From assembly GCA_014846205.1 (NCBI GenBank), contig RKAY01000061.1:1-8759 (forward strand): a stretch of 8,759 bases of DNA, given 5' to 3'. Within the stretch, counting starts at the first letter, position 1; each line of letters begins with the position of its first letter. Origin of the DNA: Collinsella aerofaciens (lineage in GTDB: Bacteria; Actinomycetota; Coriobacteriia; Coriobacteriales; Coriobacteriaceae). Position numbers and translations under genes: made by a program. This document shows positions 3,926 to 8,137 of the stretch, piece by piece. The notes under the pieces were generated by a model. It did not search any database, was not told the DNA's origin, and saw only the letters and a list, made by a program, of their open reading frames with translations.

Positions 3926-3994
3926 AAGTTGCGGTGAAATAGTTCCTGTTTGGCCATCAGACAGCCTCTTTTAGGAACTATTCCACCGCAACTT
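3926..3994. repeat. Long imperfect palindrome, copy 1 of an intergenic repeat
   Basis: The left arm 3926-3947 and right arm 3973-3994 pair over 22 bases, with one imperfect pair (3937 with 3983), around a 25-base loop. The loop contains GGC (3952-3954) and GCC (3964-3966), which could form a small inner hairpin. The outer arm (TTGCGGTG.AATAG), the loop core (TTTGGC..ATCAG) and the right flank (CAACTTAAAA) are shared with copy 2 at 7225-7292. It begins 47 bases after the dipeptidase stop when read on the minus strand. Function is unknown; options are a REP/MITE-like element, a 3'-UTR RNA structure or a transcription terminator. Confidence 0.85.
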
Positions 3995-4019
3995 AAAAAG
4001 CCCGGACGAAAGGGGTGCT
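3995..4019 (-). terminator. Weak terminator-like hairpin after the dipeptidase gene
   Basis: On the minus strand AGC-A-CC pairs with GGGCT around a 10-base loop (five pairs, one bulge) and is followed directly by TTTT, with the last stem T making a run of five. It is placed 22 bases after the dipeptidase stop. The stem is short, so strength is doubtful. The trailing GCTTTT is also present beside copy 2 of the palindrome, so it may belong to that repeat instead. Confidence 0.3.
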
Positions 4020-4041
4020 AAGTTGTTAAAACGCCGCAGCC

Positions 4042-5478
4042 TTAAAGCTCCAGCTCGTTGAGGCGCAGGATTGCCACGATATAAATCTTGAGCGCTTGCT
4101 TGAGGTGCTCTTCGTTTGCGCACTCGTTGGGACCGTGCATCTGGCCGCCCCACGCGGGCAGCTCCAGGCCGGTCTCCTCGGGGCCAAACGACACGGCGCG
4201 GGCAAAGTTGCGCGCGTACGTGCCGCCGCCCATGGCAAAGGGCTCGGCGTGCTTGCCCGTAAACTCGTTATAGGTGTCAATCAGCGCCTTCACGGCCGGG
4301 TCGTCGGCCGAAACTGAGAACGGCACCTTTGCATGACCCACGCGACACGTCACGTCGAAGCGCCCCACGAGCGGCTCGAGCTGCTCGCGGATGGTATCGG
4401 CGCTCGTGCTATCGGGAAAACGCACGTCGATGACCTGCTCGATATGGCCATCCACCACGCGGATGACGCCGGGGTTGCAGGTGAGCGGGCCAAACGCCGG
4501 GCTCGTCGCGTCGATACCCAGGCCGCGGCCATAGGCGTCCGCATGCACAAAGGCCAAAAACTTGACAAACTCGTGCTCGGCAGGCGTCAGCAGACGCTCG
4601 CCGCGGGCACCAAACGCATCCTCGGCCTCGCGCAGATACGCCACGATCAGACCGACGGCATTGATCGTTCCCTCGGGCATCGAGGCATGGCCACCAATAC
4701 CGTGGGCGAAAATCTGCGCATGCCCGTTATCGTGTGCCGTAATCTCCAGGCGGTCGGCATTCTCGACCGGCGCCGGCAGCTCATCAGCGGCAATCGCGAG
4801 CTCGCAGATAGACTGCGACGGAATGGCGTTGCTCGCCTCGGCACCGCCCCACGACACGATGCGCCCGCCGTCGATCTTGGGGCTCACAAACGTCGCCCCA
4901 AACTGGCCCTTCTCGGCATTGCAGACCGGGAACTCGGCATCGGGCGTAAACAGAAAGTCAGGGTCTGCGTGGTTCTCCAGATAATGGTGAACATCGGACA
5001 TGCCCACTTCCTCATCGCAGCCCAGCAGCGCGCGGAAGGTGTAGCGCGGCACAATGCCGTGCTTGAGCAAATAGGCGCCGGCGTAGAGCGACAGCACGGC
5101 AGGACCCTTGTCGTCGATAACGCCGCGGCCGAGCAGCCAGCCCTCGCGACGCTCCATCGCAAACGGGTCGGTGTTCCAGCCGGGGCCTGCGGGCACCACG
5201 TCCACGTGGCAGATGGTCGCGAGCTGCTTATCTCCGCGACCCGGGATATCGGCAATGCCCACGTAACCCTCGTCGTCGCTTGTCTGATAGCCGAGCTTCT
5301 GCGCGATGCCGAGCGCGCAATCGAGCGCGTCACGAACCGGACGGCCAAACGGCGCGCCGGGCTCCGCATTGGCAGAAACCGCCACGGACGGATAGCTCAC
5401 CAGCCGCTCGATATCGGCGACGACATCTTCCCAAACCTCGTCGACATACTCGGCAACGCTCTGCTCCACCTGATTCAT
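4042..5478 (-). CDS. pepV: M20-family dipeptidase (PepV/Sapep-like)
   Basis: This is a predicted cytoplasmic zinc-dependent dipeptidase that releases amino acids from dipeptides. The 478-residue length is close to that of PepV (about 470). Co-catalytic metal site residues are visible in order: His91 and Asp93 in CHVDVVP, the aspartates of DDKG at 122-125, Glu156-Glu157 in CDEEVG, Asp180 in TPDAEFPV and His448 in MHGPNE. His264 (GGHASMPEG) and Arg353 (DVRFP) are candidate substrate-side residues in the lid domain, and GGGTYAR at 417-423 matches the family. The frame extends to a TTG at 5496, but the ATG at 5478 has a perfect AAGGAGG six bases upstream and is chosen. It follows the HAD gene on the same strand after 53 bases, so the two may be co-transcribed. 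Family assignment is firm; the exact substrate is inferred. Confidence 0.92.
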   Translation of the reverse strand: MNQVEQSVAEYVDEVWEDVVADIERLVSYPSVAVSANAEPGAPFGRPVRDALDCALGIAQKLGYQTSDDEGYVGIADIPGRGDKQLATICHVDVVPAGPGWNTDPFAMERREGWLLGRGVIDDKGPAVLSLYAGAYLLKHGIVPRYTFRALLGCDEEVGMSDVHHYLENHADPDFLFTPDAEFPVCNAEKGQFGATFVSPKIDGGRIVSWGGAEASNAIPSQSICELAIAADELPAPVENADRLEITAHDNGHAQIFAHGIGGHASMPEGTINAVGLIVAYLREAEDAFGARGERLLTPAEHEFVKFLAFVHADAYGRGLGIDATSPAFGPLTCNPGVIRVVDGHIEQVIDVRFPDSTSADTIREQLEPLVGRFDVTCRVGHAKVPFSVSADDPAVKALIDTYNEFTGKHAEPFAMGGGTYARNFARAVSFGPEETGLELPAWGGQMHGPNECANEEHLKQALKIYIVAILRLNELEL

Positions 5479-5484
5479 GGACGA

Positions 5485-5491
5485 CCTCCTT
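5485..5491 (-). promoter_or_regulatory. Consensus ribosome binding site of the dipeptidase gene
   Basis: On the minus strand this is a full AAGGAGG with a 6-base spacer to the ATG at 5478. It rules out the TTG 18 bases further upstream as the main start. Confidence 0.85.
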
Positions 5492-5498
5492 ACCAATA

Positions 5499-5519
5499 AG
5501 GGGCAAGTGCGCCGCCCCT
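5499..5519 (-). other. Intercistronic hairpin before the dipeptidase ribosome binding site
   Basis: AGGGGC pairs perfectly with GCCCCT around a 9-base loop. On the minus strand it is followed by TATT and, 7 bases after the stem, by the AAGGAGG of the dipeptidase gene. It fills most of the 53-base gap after the HAD stop. It could be a weak terminator or attenuator, or an mRNA processing/stability element; the poor T-tract argues against strong termination. Confidence 0.45.
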
Positions 5520-5531
5520 CACATCAAGTAC

Positions 5532-6200
5532 TTATATAGCGAAAAGTTTAGCAAGCTCGGCCACCGAATGCACCACCGCATCGGCGCCCGCGGCCTCGTG
5601 CTCGCCCGGCGCCGCCGCGCCCGAATAGATGCCAATGCACGGCACGCCCATCGCGTGCGCGCCCTCCACATCGTTAAAGCGGTCGCCAATCATCACGGCC
5701 TCGTCGGCAGTCGCGCCAAGCGCCGCCAGGGCGTCGCGGACCGAATCGGCCTTGGTCTCGCGTCCCTGAGGCGGATTCATGCCAACCACGGCTTCGAACT
5801 GGCAAAGCCCCAGCTCATACACCATATCGATGCACTTTGCCTCCATGCGCGACGTCGCCACGGCCATACGCTTGCCCTGGGCGGCCAGCCCGTCGAGCAG
5901 CTCGGGGATCCCATCGAACACTGGGTACTCTTCCGGTCCCAGCTCATCAAAAAAGGCGCGGTACTCATCGGCCACCATCAGCGACTCCTCGCGCGAGAAG
6001 CCGTAAAAGTCGTGGAAGCTCTTCCACAGCGGAGGCCCGATCATACGGCGCAAATCACCCATCTGCGCCTCCGAAAACCCGCGCGCAGCCAGCGTCTTGC
6101 GCGTCGAGGTCATCACCGCCCGACCCGTATCGGCCACCGTGCCGTCAAAATCGAACAACACGACCGGCCGTTTGCATATCTCCAACGCCTCCATCGGCAT
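5532..6200 (-). CDS. HAD-superfamily phosphatase (Gph / 5'-nucleotidase-like)
   Basis: This is a predicted soluble Mg-dependent phosphatase acting on a small phosphate ester. In the 222-residue product, motif I is DFDGT at 17-21 (nucleophile Asp17, acid/base Asp19), motif II is the ATSR segment at 115-118, motif III lysine is probably Lys150, and motif IV is GDRFND at 172-177. The alpha-helical cap between about 25 and 95 includes IGPPL at 54-58, which is typical of the HAD_5NT/phosphoglycolate-phosphatase-like group. The start is ambiguous: ATG 6200 and ATG 6194 both follow the purine run GGGGAAGAGGG (6201-6211), and a GTG at 6227 is also in frame. I choose 6200. It is divergent from the degV-family gene and upstream of the dipeptidase gene on the same strand. 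The substrate cannot be read from sequence. Confidence 0.9.
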   Translation of the reverse strand: MPMEALEICKRPVVLFDFDGTVADTGRAVMTSTRKTLAARGFSEAQMGDLRRMIGPPLWKSFHDFYGFSREESLMVADEYRAFFDELGPEEYPVFDGIPELLDGLAAQGKRMAVATSRMEAKCIDMVYELGLCQFEAVVGMNPPQGRETKADSVRDALAALGATADEAVMIGDRFNDVEGAHAMGVPCIGIYSGAAAPGEHEAAGADAVVHSVAELAKLFAI

Positions 6201-6350
6201 CCCTCTTCCCCAGTTGACGATTTCCACACCGACACTTCAAACTGTTGACTATTCAACAATTGAACCTAGCAATGTGGAACGACTCTACTATACTTGTCGC
6301 ACTTTGCTCTCAGAAGGCGGCGCGCAAACGCCCCAACGAAAGGTGCAATT
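6201..6350. promoter_or_regulatory. Divergent promoter region between the HAD and degV-family genes
   Basis: This 150-base gap must contain promoters for both directions. It is noticeably more AT-rich around 6238-6296. For the plus strand, TATACT (6289-6294) or TACTAT (6286-6291) could be a -10 element, with TTGAAC (6260-6265) as a -35, although the spacing (20-23 bases) is long. No convincing minus-strand promoter was found. Repeated half-sites GTTGA, TTCAA and TTGAA lie at 6244-6264. Purine-rich ribosome binding sites flank both ends. Confidence 0.45.
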
Positions 6351-7211
6351 ATGTCTTTTGCCATCATAACCGACTCCACGTCGGACATCTCCCCCGCCCG
6401 TGCCCAAGAGCTCGGCATTTACGTGATTCCGCTGCATGTGATTATCGAGGGTGAGGACCTGCTCGACCAGGTGCAGATTACCGCCCAGGAATACGTCGCG
6501 CGCATGGCTGGCTCCGAGCAGCTGCCGCACACCTCGCAGCCGAGCGCCGGCGAGTTTAAGGCGCTCTTTGACCGTGTGCGCGCCGACGGCCACGATAGCG
6601 CGATCTTTATCTCGCTGTGCAGCGAGTGGTCTGCCTGCTATTCCAACGCATGCCTGACGGCCGGGACCCATGAGCTCGACGTGCGCTGCATCGATTCGCG
6701 CACCGGCTCGGGCGCCGAGGGCCTGCTGGTGGAGTACGCGCTGGCTATGCGCGAGGACGGTCGCAGCCTGGACGAGACCGAGGCGCAGATCCGCGCGACG
6801 CTGCCCGACGCCCACCTGCTGTTGATTCCCCGCACGCTCGAGAACCTGGTCAAGAACGGCCGCGCACCTAAACTCGCCGGCCAGCTCACCCAAATGCTCA
6901 ACATTCGCCTGGCCGTTTCGCCGGAGTGGAAGTCAGGCGAGATCAAGGCCATCAAGAAGGGTCGCGGTGCCAAGCGCATCGTTGCGAACACCATGGCCGA
7001 CTGCCTCGAGTTTTTGGCCGAGCACCCGGGCTCCAGCGTGCGCGTGCTCACGACCGGCGCTGCCGAGGAGCAGGAGCTCGTCAACCAAGCGCTCGCAGGC
7101 CAGAACTACGTAGACGCCGGCACCGGCCCCATCGGCTGCACCATCGCCACCCACGTAGGCGTCGACGCCATCGCCATCAGTTACTGCCCCCGCTACCAAC
7201 CCACCAATTAG
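6351..7211 (+). CDS. DegV-family fatty-acid-binding protein (FakB-like)
   Basis: DegV/FakB proteins bind a single fatty acid and, in the FakA/FakB system, present it for phosphorylation. The 286-residue product starts with the family N-terminus (IITDSTSDI, residues 5-13) and carries TSQPS at 61-65. The ISLCSEWS segment at 87-94 corresponds to the usual S-x-L-S-G-T stretch, followed by IDSRTGSGAEGLLV at 114-127, LVKNGR at 166-171, and THVG at 267-270 near the C-terminus. Thr61, a serine near 91, Arg171 and His268 match the fatty-acid carboxylate-binding positions known from FakB. The usual Gly-Thr after that serine is replaced (SEWSACY), so ligand preference could differ. The frame is open from 6294, but ATG 6351 has AAAGGTG five bases upstream (6339-6345) and matches the family N-terminus. 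No fakA is in the window. Confidence 0.93.
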   Translation: MSFAIITDSTSDISPARAQELGIYVIPLHVIIEGEDLLDQVQITAQEYVARMAGSEQLPHTSQPSAGEFKALFDRVRADGHDSAIFISLCSEWSACYSNACLTAGTHELDVRCIDSRTGSGAEGLLVEYALAMREDGRSLDETEAQIRATLPDAHLLLIPRTLENLVKNGRAPKLAGQLTQMLNIRLAVSPEWKSGEIKAIKKGRGAKRIVANTMADCLEFLAEHPGSSVRVLTTGAAEEQELVNQALAGQNYVDAGTGPIGCTIATHVGVDAIAISYCPRYQPTN

Positions 7212-7224
7212 GGCTACCCATACC

Positions 7225-7292
7225 ACTTGCGGTGGAATAGGGACTGTTTTTGGCTTATCAGCCGCAAATCAATCCCTATTCCACCGCAACTT
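7225..7292. repeat. Long imperfect palindrome, copy 2 of the intergenic repeat
   Basis: Left arm 7227-7246 and right arm 7270-7289 pair over 20 bases with one imperfect pair (7244 with 7272) around a 23-base loop. The loop contains GGCT and AGCC when read on the minus strand, around a GATA tetraloop. It shares the outer stem, loop core and right flank with copy 1 at 3926-3994, in the same orientation. The inner stem differs: GGGAC/ATCCC type here against TTCCT/AGGAA in copy 1, with both arms changed together. It lies 14 bases after the degV-family stop and downstream of the convergent LOG gene. Confidence 0.85.
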
Positions 7293-7306
7293 AAAAGCAG
7301 TTCATT

Positions 7307-7371
7307 TGGGACGGGGCTAAAAGACTGGTATCAAACGTATCAGACCAGTCTTTTTAGCCCCGTCCCATTTT
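7307..7371. terminator. Long bidirectional intrinsic terminator between degV-family and LOG genes
   Basis: The core is GACTGGT (7323-7329) paired with ACCAGTC (7344-7350), flanked by AAAA on the left and TTTTT on the right. This is a classic two-way terminator between convergent genes. The pairing continues outward through 7307-7322 with 7352-7367 (16 more pairs), leaving a single bulged T at 7351. The total stem is therefore about 23 pairs around a 14-base loop. The plus strand also has TTTT at 7368-7371 after the full stem. The loop region contains the direct repeat GTATCA (7328-7333 and 7337-7342). Confidence 0.8.
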
Positions 7372-7378
7372 AGCTACC

Positions 7379-8137
7379 CTACATCAGCCCGCTCAGGGCG
7401 ATGTCGACGGCCTCGTTGAGGTCGTCGGTGATATGCACCAGCTCCGGATCGAGCGGGCTGATCATACCGGCTTCCATCACCGGGCCGTTGAGCCAGTCGA
7501 ACAGGCCCTGCCAGTACTCGGTGCCCACCAAAACGAGCGGCATGCGCTTGACCTTGTGCGTCTGCACCAGTGTGAGCACCTCGAACATCTCGTCGAGCGT
7601 GCCAAAACCACCGGGAAACACGATGGCGCCCGAGCTGTACTTAACAAACATGGTCTTGCGCACAAAGAAGTAGCGGAAGTCCATACCCAGGTTCACGTAT
7701 TTGTTGAGCCCCTGCTCGTGCGGCAGCTCGATACCCAAGCCGACCGACTTGCCGTTGGCGCTCGCCGCTCCCCTGTTGGCCGCCTCCATAATGCCAGGGC
7801 CGCCGCCGGTGATAACCGCCACGCCGCGCTGGGCGATCTTGCGGCCGACCGTGCGCGCAGCCTTGTAGAGCTGATCGGTCTTGGGCGTGCGAGCACTGCC
7901 GAAGATGGTCACCGCAGGACCAAGCTCGGCAAGCGCGCCAAAGCCATCGACAAACTCGGCCTGAATGCGCAGCACGCGCCACGGGTCGGCGTGCAACCAA
8001 TCGGTCGAATCTTCGGGCGCCAGCAGGTTGGCGTAGGTGTTGTCCTTAGGAATCATGGGGCCGCGCATGACCACGGGGCCGCGGCGGTACGTCTCGTCGT
8101 AGGCGGGCTCGCCCTCGACATTCTCATTCTTAATCAT
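7379..8137 (-). CDS. LOG-family protein (TIGR00730 Rossmann-fold, putative nucleotide phosphoribohydrolase)
   Basis: LOG-family enzymes cleave the N-glycosidic bond of nucleoside 5'-monophosphates, releasing base and ribose 5-phosphate; bacterial members often have unclear physiological roles. The 252-residue product has a Rossmann core with VTIFGSAR at 76-83, the phosphate-binding GGGPGIMEAANRG at 111-123, and the defining PGGFGTLDE at 175-183, whose glutamate is expected to be catalytic. FFVRKTMF at 157-164 supplies the conserved Arg-Lys. The first 50 or so residues are a charged extension, making it longer than minimal LOG proteins. The frame opens at 8251, but ATG 8137 has AGGAG five bases upstream (8143-8147) and is chosen. 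It lies 210 bases after tgt on the same strand and ends at the bidirectional terminator. Confidence 0.92.
   Translation of the reverse strand: MIKNENVEGEPAYDETYRRGPVVMRGPMIPKDNTYANLLAPEDSTDWLHADPWRVLRIQAEFVDGFGALAELGPAVTIFGSARTPKTDQLYKAARTVGRKIAQRGVAVITGGGPGIMEAANRGAASANGKSVGLGIELPHEQGLNKYVNLGMDFRYFFVRKTMFVKYSSGAIVFPGGFGTLDEMFEVLTLVQTHKVKRMPLVLVGTEYWQGLFDWLNGPVMEAGMISPLDPELVHITDDLNEAVDIALSGLM

Follow-up and report, generated by a model that had tools for sequence, protein, structure and literature searches.

A dispersed palindrome family behind stop codons in the Collinsella aerofaciens group, of likely mini-mobile-element descent

An 8,759-nucleotide stretch of Collinsella aerofaciens DNA (contig RKAY01000061.1 of assembly GCA_014846205.1; the window is this whole stretch) carries two long intergenic palindromes, at 3926-3994 and 7225-7292, which belong to a single dispersed family that we call family 1. 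The family is real, multi-copy and constrained, and it is best filed beside REPINs (doublets of repetitive extragenic palindromic, or REP, sequences that form hairpins, PMC3116915) and miniature inverted-repeat transposable elements (MITEs), as a proven member of neither. We hold it most likely, with moderate confidence, that this palindrome family of the C. aerofaciens group descends from a MITE- or REPIN-like mini-mobile element and is now mostly inherited in place, where it is kept as a hairpin behind stop codons.

The two palindromes of the window

An earlier note, made from the letters of the window alone, reported both palindromes, and both are present. A repeat search recovered the arms at 3926-3947/3973-3994 for copy 1 (95% complementary) and at 7227-7250/7266-7289 for copy 2 (92% complementary). 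They fold at -36.6 to -45.5 kcal/mol, far better than shuffled sequences (z -8.1 to -9.7 for both palindromes on both strands; 0 of 200 shuffles equal every time). The ends were said to be shared, which is true of the right flank (CTATTCCACCGCAACTTAAAA, identical in both copies) and not quite true of the left outer arm, where the copies are one base apart (GGTGAAATAG vs GGTGGAATAG). The three paired arm differences, T-A, T-A and C-G in one copy and G-C, G-C and A-T in the other, had been read correctly. Three details had been overlooked: an A.C mismatch of copy 1 in GGTGAAATAG/CTATTCCACC, a C.A mismatch at the fourth inner pair of copy 2 (each G.T on the other strand), and the limits of copy 2, which is strictly palindromic over 7227-7289 only. 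Five Rfam matches in the window were weak and all below the gathering scores; those to miRNA, scaRNA and snoRNA families were rejected as types that make no sense here.

Palindromes of family 1 in the window (coordinates, strand, description):
3926-3994, minus strand: copy 1, class A arms, TTCCTG opposite TAGGAA, one A.C mismatch further out
3931-3948, unstranded: left arm of the 59-bp core of copy 1
3949-3971, unstranded: 23-nt hypervariable loop of copy 1
3972-3989, unstranded: right arm of the 59-bp core of copy 1
7225-7292, plus strand: copy 2, class B arms, GGGACTG/CAATCCC, one C.A mismatch
7229-7246, unstranded: left arm of the 59-bp core of copy 2
7247-7269, unstranded: 23-nt hypervariable loop of copy 2
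7270-7287, unstranded: right arm of the 59-bp core of copy 2

Family size, spread and length

The earlier note had taken the two copies for homologous and had offered a REP/BIME-like or MITE-like element as one possibility. The homology is confirmed: both come from one multi-copy, REP- or MITE-like family, mostly intergenic and 3' of genes. Far from being the only two copies, they are joined by others in a genome-wide search, for which counts were taken from the genomes of relatives. Of 43 genus genomes, 22 contain a strict two-arm pattern, at 8-26 copies each, and the reversed-pattern control gave 0 in all 43, which puts the pattern far outside what chance would produce. A covariance model built from 61 site representatives matches 23 of the 43 genomes; in 22 of them the 39-96 strand matches correspond to at least about 20-48 copies each (lower bounds, as 114 candidates per genome were scored under strict filters), and one, G022, has a single copy. 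A scan with the two-arm pattern yielded at least 120 stretches, and among the matches listed all records were titled Collinsella, many of them C. aerofaciens.

When 395 genomes of the order were searched for the arm pattern, 24 contained it, namely the same 22, G022, and G124, the last on a short contig. The genome G124 lies outside the 43-genome genus set, and its two copies sit on a 9,129-bp contig (L321, G124:C44) that is 96.6% identical to DNA of G001; they may reflect contamination or recent transfer, which are indistinguishable here. No stretch of the viral contigs held the strict pattern and the phages gave no match. The only plasmid record with matches is a 900-kb replicon labelled plasmid 6 (NZ_OY725717.1, L318); it has ribosomal protein genes, so it is probably part of a chromosome and provides no evidence for plasmid carriage.

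The copies share conserved arms around a hypervariable loop of about 23 nt that differs from site to site, and the foot of the hairpin has the consensus ATAAGTT/AACTTA (61 site representatives). In a relaxed search of the 120 stretches and the window, the core was 59 bp long in 148 of 153 copies and 58 bp in 5, and only 1 of 279 exact half-arms was unpaired. Over 900 contiguous kb of one genome, not selected for the element, the model found 19 copies, the weakest strand match scoring 62.3 bits and the next match 14.3 bits; with nothing between 62 and 14 bits, there are no decayed copies in that 900 kb. A loose regular expression had returned 160 mostly chance matches there; these were replaced by the 19 model matches, and the context totals and tests based on them were discarded.

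Arm variation and pairing

Across the 61 sites, columns 20-22 of the stem switch between T-A, T-A, C-G and G-C, G-C, A-T as one block. Both members of a pair have changed in 93 cells. Columns 20-22 account for 77 of these, column 14 for 7, column 19 for 5 and other columns for 4; no such cell occurs in columns 23 and 25, and column 14 assorts about like independent bases (hand count). Because the three columns form a single linked unit that comes as either TTC or GGA, their switch is no proof of step-by-step compensation. The fraction of paired cells (92.3% vs 86.1%), the number of both-side cells (93 vs 50.7) and the covariation score (0.179 vs 0.086) lay above all 500 shuffles, while the number of pairs (8 vs 7.6) and of pair types (19 vs 18.8) did not, a pattern that fits one or two inherited blocks rather than many independent compensations.

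A separate test used changes at fixed sites. Among one-sided arm changes that leave Watson-Crick pairing, 22 were of the wobble type and 1 gave another mismatch; the loops, for comparison, showed 69 transitions and 40 transversions (difference from the arms p 0.002, or p 0.004 without position 7). This bias favours constrained pairing independently of the TTC/GGA block, and a binding protein that tolerates similar bases could mimic it. The key inference of the earlier note, that paired change implies selection for the fold, is thus only partly supported: most of the signal is one inherited subfamily difference (77/93 both-side cells), and it is the fixed-site test that speaks for the pairing. 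Over 38 orthologous sites with 141 distinct sequences, the loop has 0.125 minor alleles per column, compared with 0.031 for the arms and 0.008 for the outer arm.

The two arms of a copy agree in their version. None of 194 distinct copies differs at three or more positions between its own two 5-bp arm blocks, and without any pairing filter 193 copies comprise 98 with GGA-type sequence in both arms, 95 with TTC-type sequence in both arms and 0 mixed. Mixing does occur for the lesser G/C difference at position 12, where 4 of 60 cells are C.C. These numbers bear on the idea that the element is a double-stranded binding site, with inverted half-sites at fixed spacing read by a dimeric protein. The nearly invariant outer arm, the length of about 59 bp held in spite of site-specific loops and the lack of decayed copies in the 900 kb would suit such a site. 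However, independent half-sites should yield mixed copies of the two classes, 0 of which were observed among 193, and the strong gene-end preference (see below) also speaks against it. We regard it as rather improbable.

Site-specific pairing of the flanks beyond AAGTT was considered and rejected, with 308 paired cells vs 331 in cross-site shuffles (67 representatives, 3 of them genic), and pairing of the loop within a site is weak (mean -5.95 kcal/mol; chimeras -5.45, sd 0.27). Loops of different sites can be 0.65-0.78 identical owing to their similar composition, and identity in this range was not taken as a sign of orthology.

Position relative to genes

For gene calling we used a codon model that had been trained on the window; its stop codons agreed for 14 of 14 annotated genes checked. 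We could place 134 of 158 pattern-found copies, the remaining ones being without a called gene on both sides: 66 lie in tandem gaps, 56 in convergent gaps, 7 in divergent gaps and 5 inside called genes. After copies with similar loops were merged, 67 site types remained (34 tandem, 26 convergent, 4 divergent and 3 genic), from loci chosen for holding a copy. Divergent gaps are depleted, with 4 of 64 intergenic site types vs 22% of intergenic length (p 0.001), and convergent gaps enriched, with 26 of 64 vs 15% (p 9e-7). In the unselected 900 kb, 12 copies are tandem, 5 convergent, 1 divergent and 1 called genic. Copies lie a median of 44.5 nt away from the stop codon, compared with 208 nt where the neighbouring gene end is a start. 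Both copies in the window follow this pattern, copy 1 lying 47 bp past the end of a minus-strand dipeptidase gene and copy 2 lying 13 bp past a stop codon in a convergent gap.

Genes with a family-1 copy behind the 3' end (coordinates, strand, description):
4042-5496, minus strand: open reading frame of a Sapep-type dipeptidase (copy 1)
6351-7211, plus strand: DegV-family gene (copy 2)

Additionally, the window encodes PstB, PstA, PstC, PstS, a TIGR00730 (LOG-type) protein, the end of Tgt and a HAD-type hydrolase, the last without a match above its cut-off.

This placement is one argument for an RNA element, either a two-way transcription terminator or a stabiliser of the 3' untranslated region, selected at the RNA level. 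Strong folds and the mostly wobble-type arm changes point the same way, as does the finding that in other strains this position is occupied by different hairpins, some of which resemble terminators. Nevertheless, no U-tract follows the stem (the downstream T fraction is 0.05-0.47 at positions 6-20 in transcript sense), G.U is not favoured over A.C in transcript sense (31 vs 52, tandem copies), and terminators need neither conserved arm sequence nor fixed loop length. Canonical terminators seemed scarcer at element-bearing gene ends (3/20 vs 166/371; shuffled control 10/150), and this depletion was gone once the space occupied by the element was masked (3/17 vs 52/292; 23/90 vs 50/211). Taken as a full account of the family, selection at the RNA level seems to us unlikely.

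Exchange between copies and accessory genes

We compared 501 orthologous pairs of equal length and non-identical sequence; the loop was kept in 481, and a different interior stood between conserved flanks in 20. At one site (site 4), the flanks on either side are common to seven genomes as far as the outer arm, and two of the seven have GGA-type arms together with another loop. The orthologous pair L031/L069 has the same 23-nt loop in both members, with a switch of both arm blocks; in L069 the mirroring of the right flank by the left extends four bases past AAGTT, which is not so in L031. We infer that this pair records exchange with another copy combined with arm-to-arm template copying, and template switching has been proposed as a general route for RNA hairpins (PMC8794818). 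The copying mechanism that keeps arms symmetric, which the earlier note had offered as the other way to explain paired change, thus stays plausible, with this one orthologous pair as its basis.

In some loci accessory genes are enclosed by a pair of copies. One is L322, where two direct copies with similar loops surround an 8.4-kb block of kdp genes (1989-10464); G022 has the same flanks around a single copy (L323, 9396-9454), with no match to kdp between them. The DegV-LOG gap, the locus of copy 2 in the window, holds two direct copies 3.7 kb apart in L088 (2131-5887) and in L102 (3140-6896); in L088 a TOTE-type primase-helicase lies between them, and a YafQ-type toxin gene then follows. Among 56 copy pairs no more than 15 kb apart, 9 distinct pairs from four loci have a same-orientation loop identity of at least 0.76.

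Such pairs, the kdp and primase-helicase loci among them, are what one would expect of a recombination or gene-capture site of the attC kind, with cargo between two direct copies that have matching loops. Yet the match between the kdp locus and G022 breaks about 50-110 bp outside the element rather than inside it, no integron integrase (TIGR02249) scored above the cut-off in any of 8 genomes, and the arm ends (GTTGCGG) do not fit the attC core. Recombination between repeats is the simplest reading of copy pairs around accessory genes, and homologous recombination of this kind accounts for the pairs. We regard a dedicated capture site as very improbable.

RAYT-like genes and tests of mobility

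REPINs are mobilised by REP-associated tyrosine transposases (RAYTs), and a search for such a gene had been suggested in the earlier note. Genes with a Y1_Tnp domain are found in 37 of the 43 genus genomes, and RAYT-like genes are common in the genus; of 77 Y1_Tnp loci fetched, 63 contain a RAYT-like open reading frame, and none of these 63 has family 1 nearby (the fetched flank being at most about 1.4-2 kb). Three RAYT-like proteins score 54-61 bits against NF047646, below its cut-off of 80. One RAYT cluster occurs in 16 of the 22 genomes rich in family 1 and in no others, as counted on the fetched loci, which do not include every match.

Family 1 could be viewed as a REPIN population that is mobilised by a RAYT and copied rarely, as single-stranded hairpins. 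Conserved arms around a variable spacer are what PMC3116915 describes for REPINs, and the breadth of Y1_Tnp genes and the distribution of the one RAYT cluster are in keeping with it. Against it stand the 0 of 63 loci, whereas two other RAYT-like genes have flanking repeats of their own: that in L123 is flanked by GTAGCTAATTTGGGACGGGGC, to which the window hairpin at 7300-7380 is closely similar, and that in L132 by GGGACAGACAT repeats unlike family 1. Moreover, the GTAG/GGAG tag is absent from the hairpin foot in the 61-site consensus, no small hairpin was seen within the arms, and arms are not in surplus (in both G019 and G030 there are 69 exact ones, vs up to 86 and 94, respectively, in model matches). 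We give this explanation a minor share of our confidence.

Second palindrome of the window (coordinates, strand, description):
7300-7380, unstranded: family 2, adjoining copy 2; the minus strand reads GGGTAGCTAAAATGGGACGGGGC...

On its minus strand (GGGTAGCTAAAATGGGACGGGGCTAAAAAGACTGG...) this second palindrome closely resembles the GTAG repeats that flank the RAYT-like gene of L123. Separately, a Y1_Tnp gene that is not RAYT-like (L121, 1327-2286) has a family-1 copy with paired GAGATAG/CTATCTC arms about 290 bp downstream. It is alone in this among 14 loci with non-RAYT-like Y1_Tnp genes, and the counterparts of its copy in L071 and at 311445 of G021:C6 have no listed Y1_Tnp match nearby.

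The locus of copy 1 has family 1 in 10 of 18 genomes. Among the other 8, six hold other palindromes or parts of palindromes, some beside terminator-like hairpins, and two end at contig breaks, the G010 contig running into the left arm. The palindromes or parts found in this gap differ from one another (L143, L145 and L147-L150; GTAGTCATTGGGGACG..., GATCCCTTGGGGACGGAGG..., TGCCGGCA...GGGGACG), and they have a GGGAC or GGGGAC core in common with the RAYT-linked repeats.

Proposed origin and its weak points

The descent from a mini-mobile element that we favour could have run as follows. The TTC and GGA arm versions would be two subfamilies that spread as whole units. Their arms would be kept matched by exchange between copies, together with template switching at the hairpin that copies one arm from the other, and selection against mispaired arms would help. 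At its present sites the hairpin would replace a terminator and act as a two-way structure at gene ends or mRNA ends, and the mobilising enzyme may have been lost or may act in trans.

A number of observations weigh against this course. No target-site duplication was found (the best z was 2.1 when 72 combinations of offset and length were tried over 61 sites), no clean empty site was found, and no partner transposase was found, so that mobility itself is putative. Decayed copies do occur outside the 900 kb, L178 being partly decayed and L143 and L145 retaining a leftover CCACCGCAAC. A paired class switch with a kept loop was seen at one clean site, and arm differences within sites are mostly one-sided (290 vs 16 both-sided, pairwise counts). 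Moreover, 10 of the 23 pairs never vary; such columns are uninformative on pairing and could reflect sequence recognition. In transcript sense A.C outnumbers G.U by 52 to 31 (tandem copies, L001-L120 and the window), and the constraint is therefore not obviously on RNA. The divergent depletion is not significant in the 900 kb alone (1/18, p 0.15), and the masked comparison shows no terminator deficit, so that a terminator function is putative.

A variant of the same descent is that the element is a domesticated, once-mobile 59-bp signal, now standard at gene ends in one clade of gut bacteria, for which a dedicated factor would need matching arms and the exact distance between them. Arm pairs would then be rewritten together, one arm serving as template for the other, while the loop is kept, and copy pairs would serve as exchange points for kdp and TOTE-type genes. 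We consider this variant doubtful.

Whichever course it took, the family offers a natural experiment, since loops mark the sites and at least about 20-48 copies are present per genome in 22 genomes. With these copies one can ask whether matching hairpin arms change through step-wise compensation, through one arm being copied from the other or through exchange with other copies. A functional RNA is often considered proven by compensatory changes; in this family most of that signal is one inherited block, which calls for caution when covariation tests are run on repeat families. The analysis also adds several palindrome families and RAYT-like genes in Collinsella, and no description of them was seen in partial literature listings.

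Comparison with known systems

In bidirectional intrinsic terminators the hairpin stands immediately behind the stop codon, in many cases where two genes converge. Family 1 has the same placement; in contrast to them it is without a U-tract, its arm sequence is conserved and it is a dispersed repeat. Bacterial MITEs such as ERIC and Correia elements have terminal inverted repeats, no coding capacity and many copies. Inverted repeats, multiple copies and the lack of coding sequence are common to them and to family 1, for which no target duplication or partner transposon was detected. As regards an autonomous relative with matching ends, the exact arms counted in the two whole genomes G019 and G030 are no more numerous than those within the elements.

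The GTAG- and CGTC-tagged REPs of PMC3733652 are likewise short palindromic intergenic repeats, and the second palindrome of the window (7300-7380) resembles the GTAG type. They are 20-40 bp long, whereas family 1 is 59-73 bp long and has neither tag at its foot. The main text of that paper has no mention of Collinsella, Coriobacter, Slackia, Eggerthella or Actinobacteria. Family 1 may be among the 250 palindromic candidates that PMC8040213, according to its text, gives in its supplement.

The likeness to REPINs as described in PMC3116915 lies in inverted conserved arms, a less conserved spacer, many copies and extragenic placement. Unlike REPINs so described, family 1 is without a REP unit that forms a hairpin by itself, without a GTAG tag and without an adjoining RAYT in the loci seen; it also differs from them in that it has hardly any single arms and keeps a nearly fixed length.

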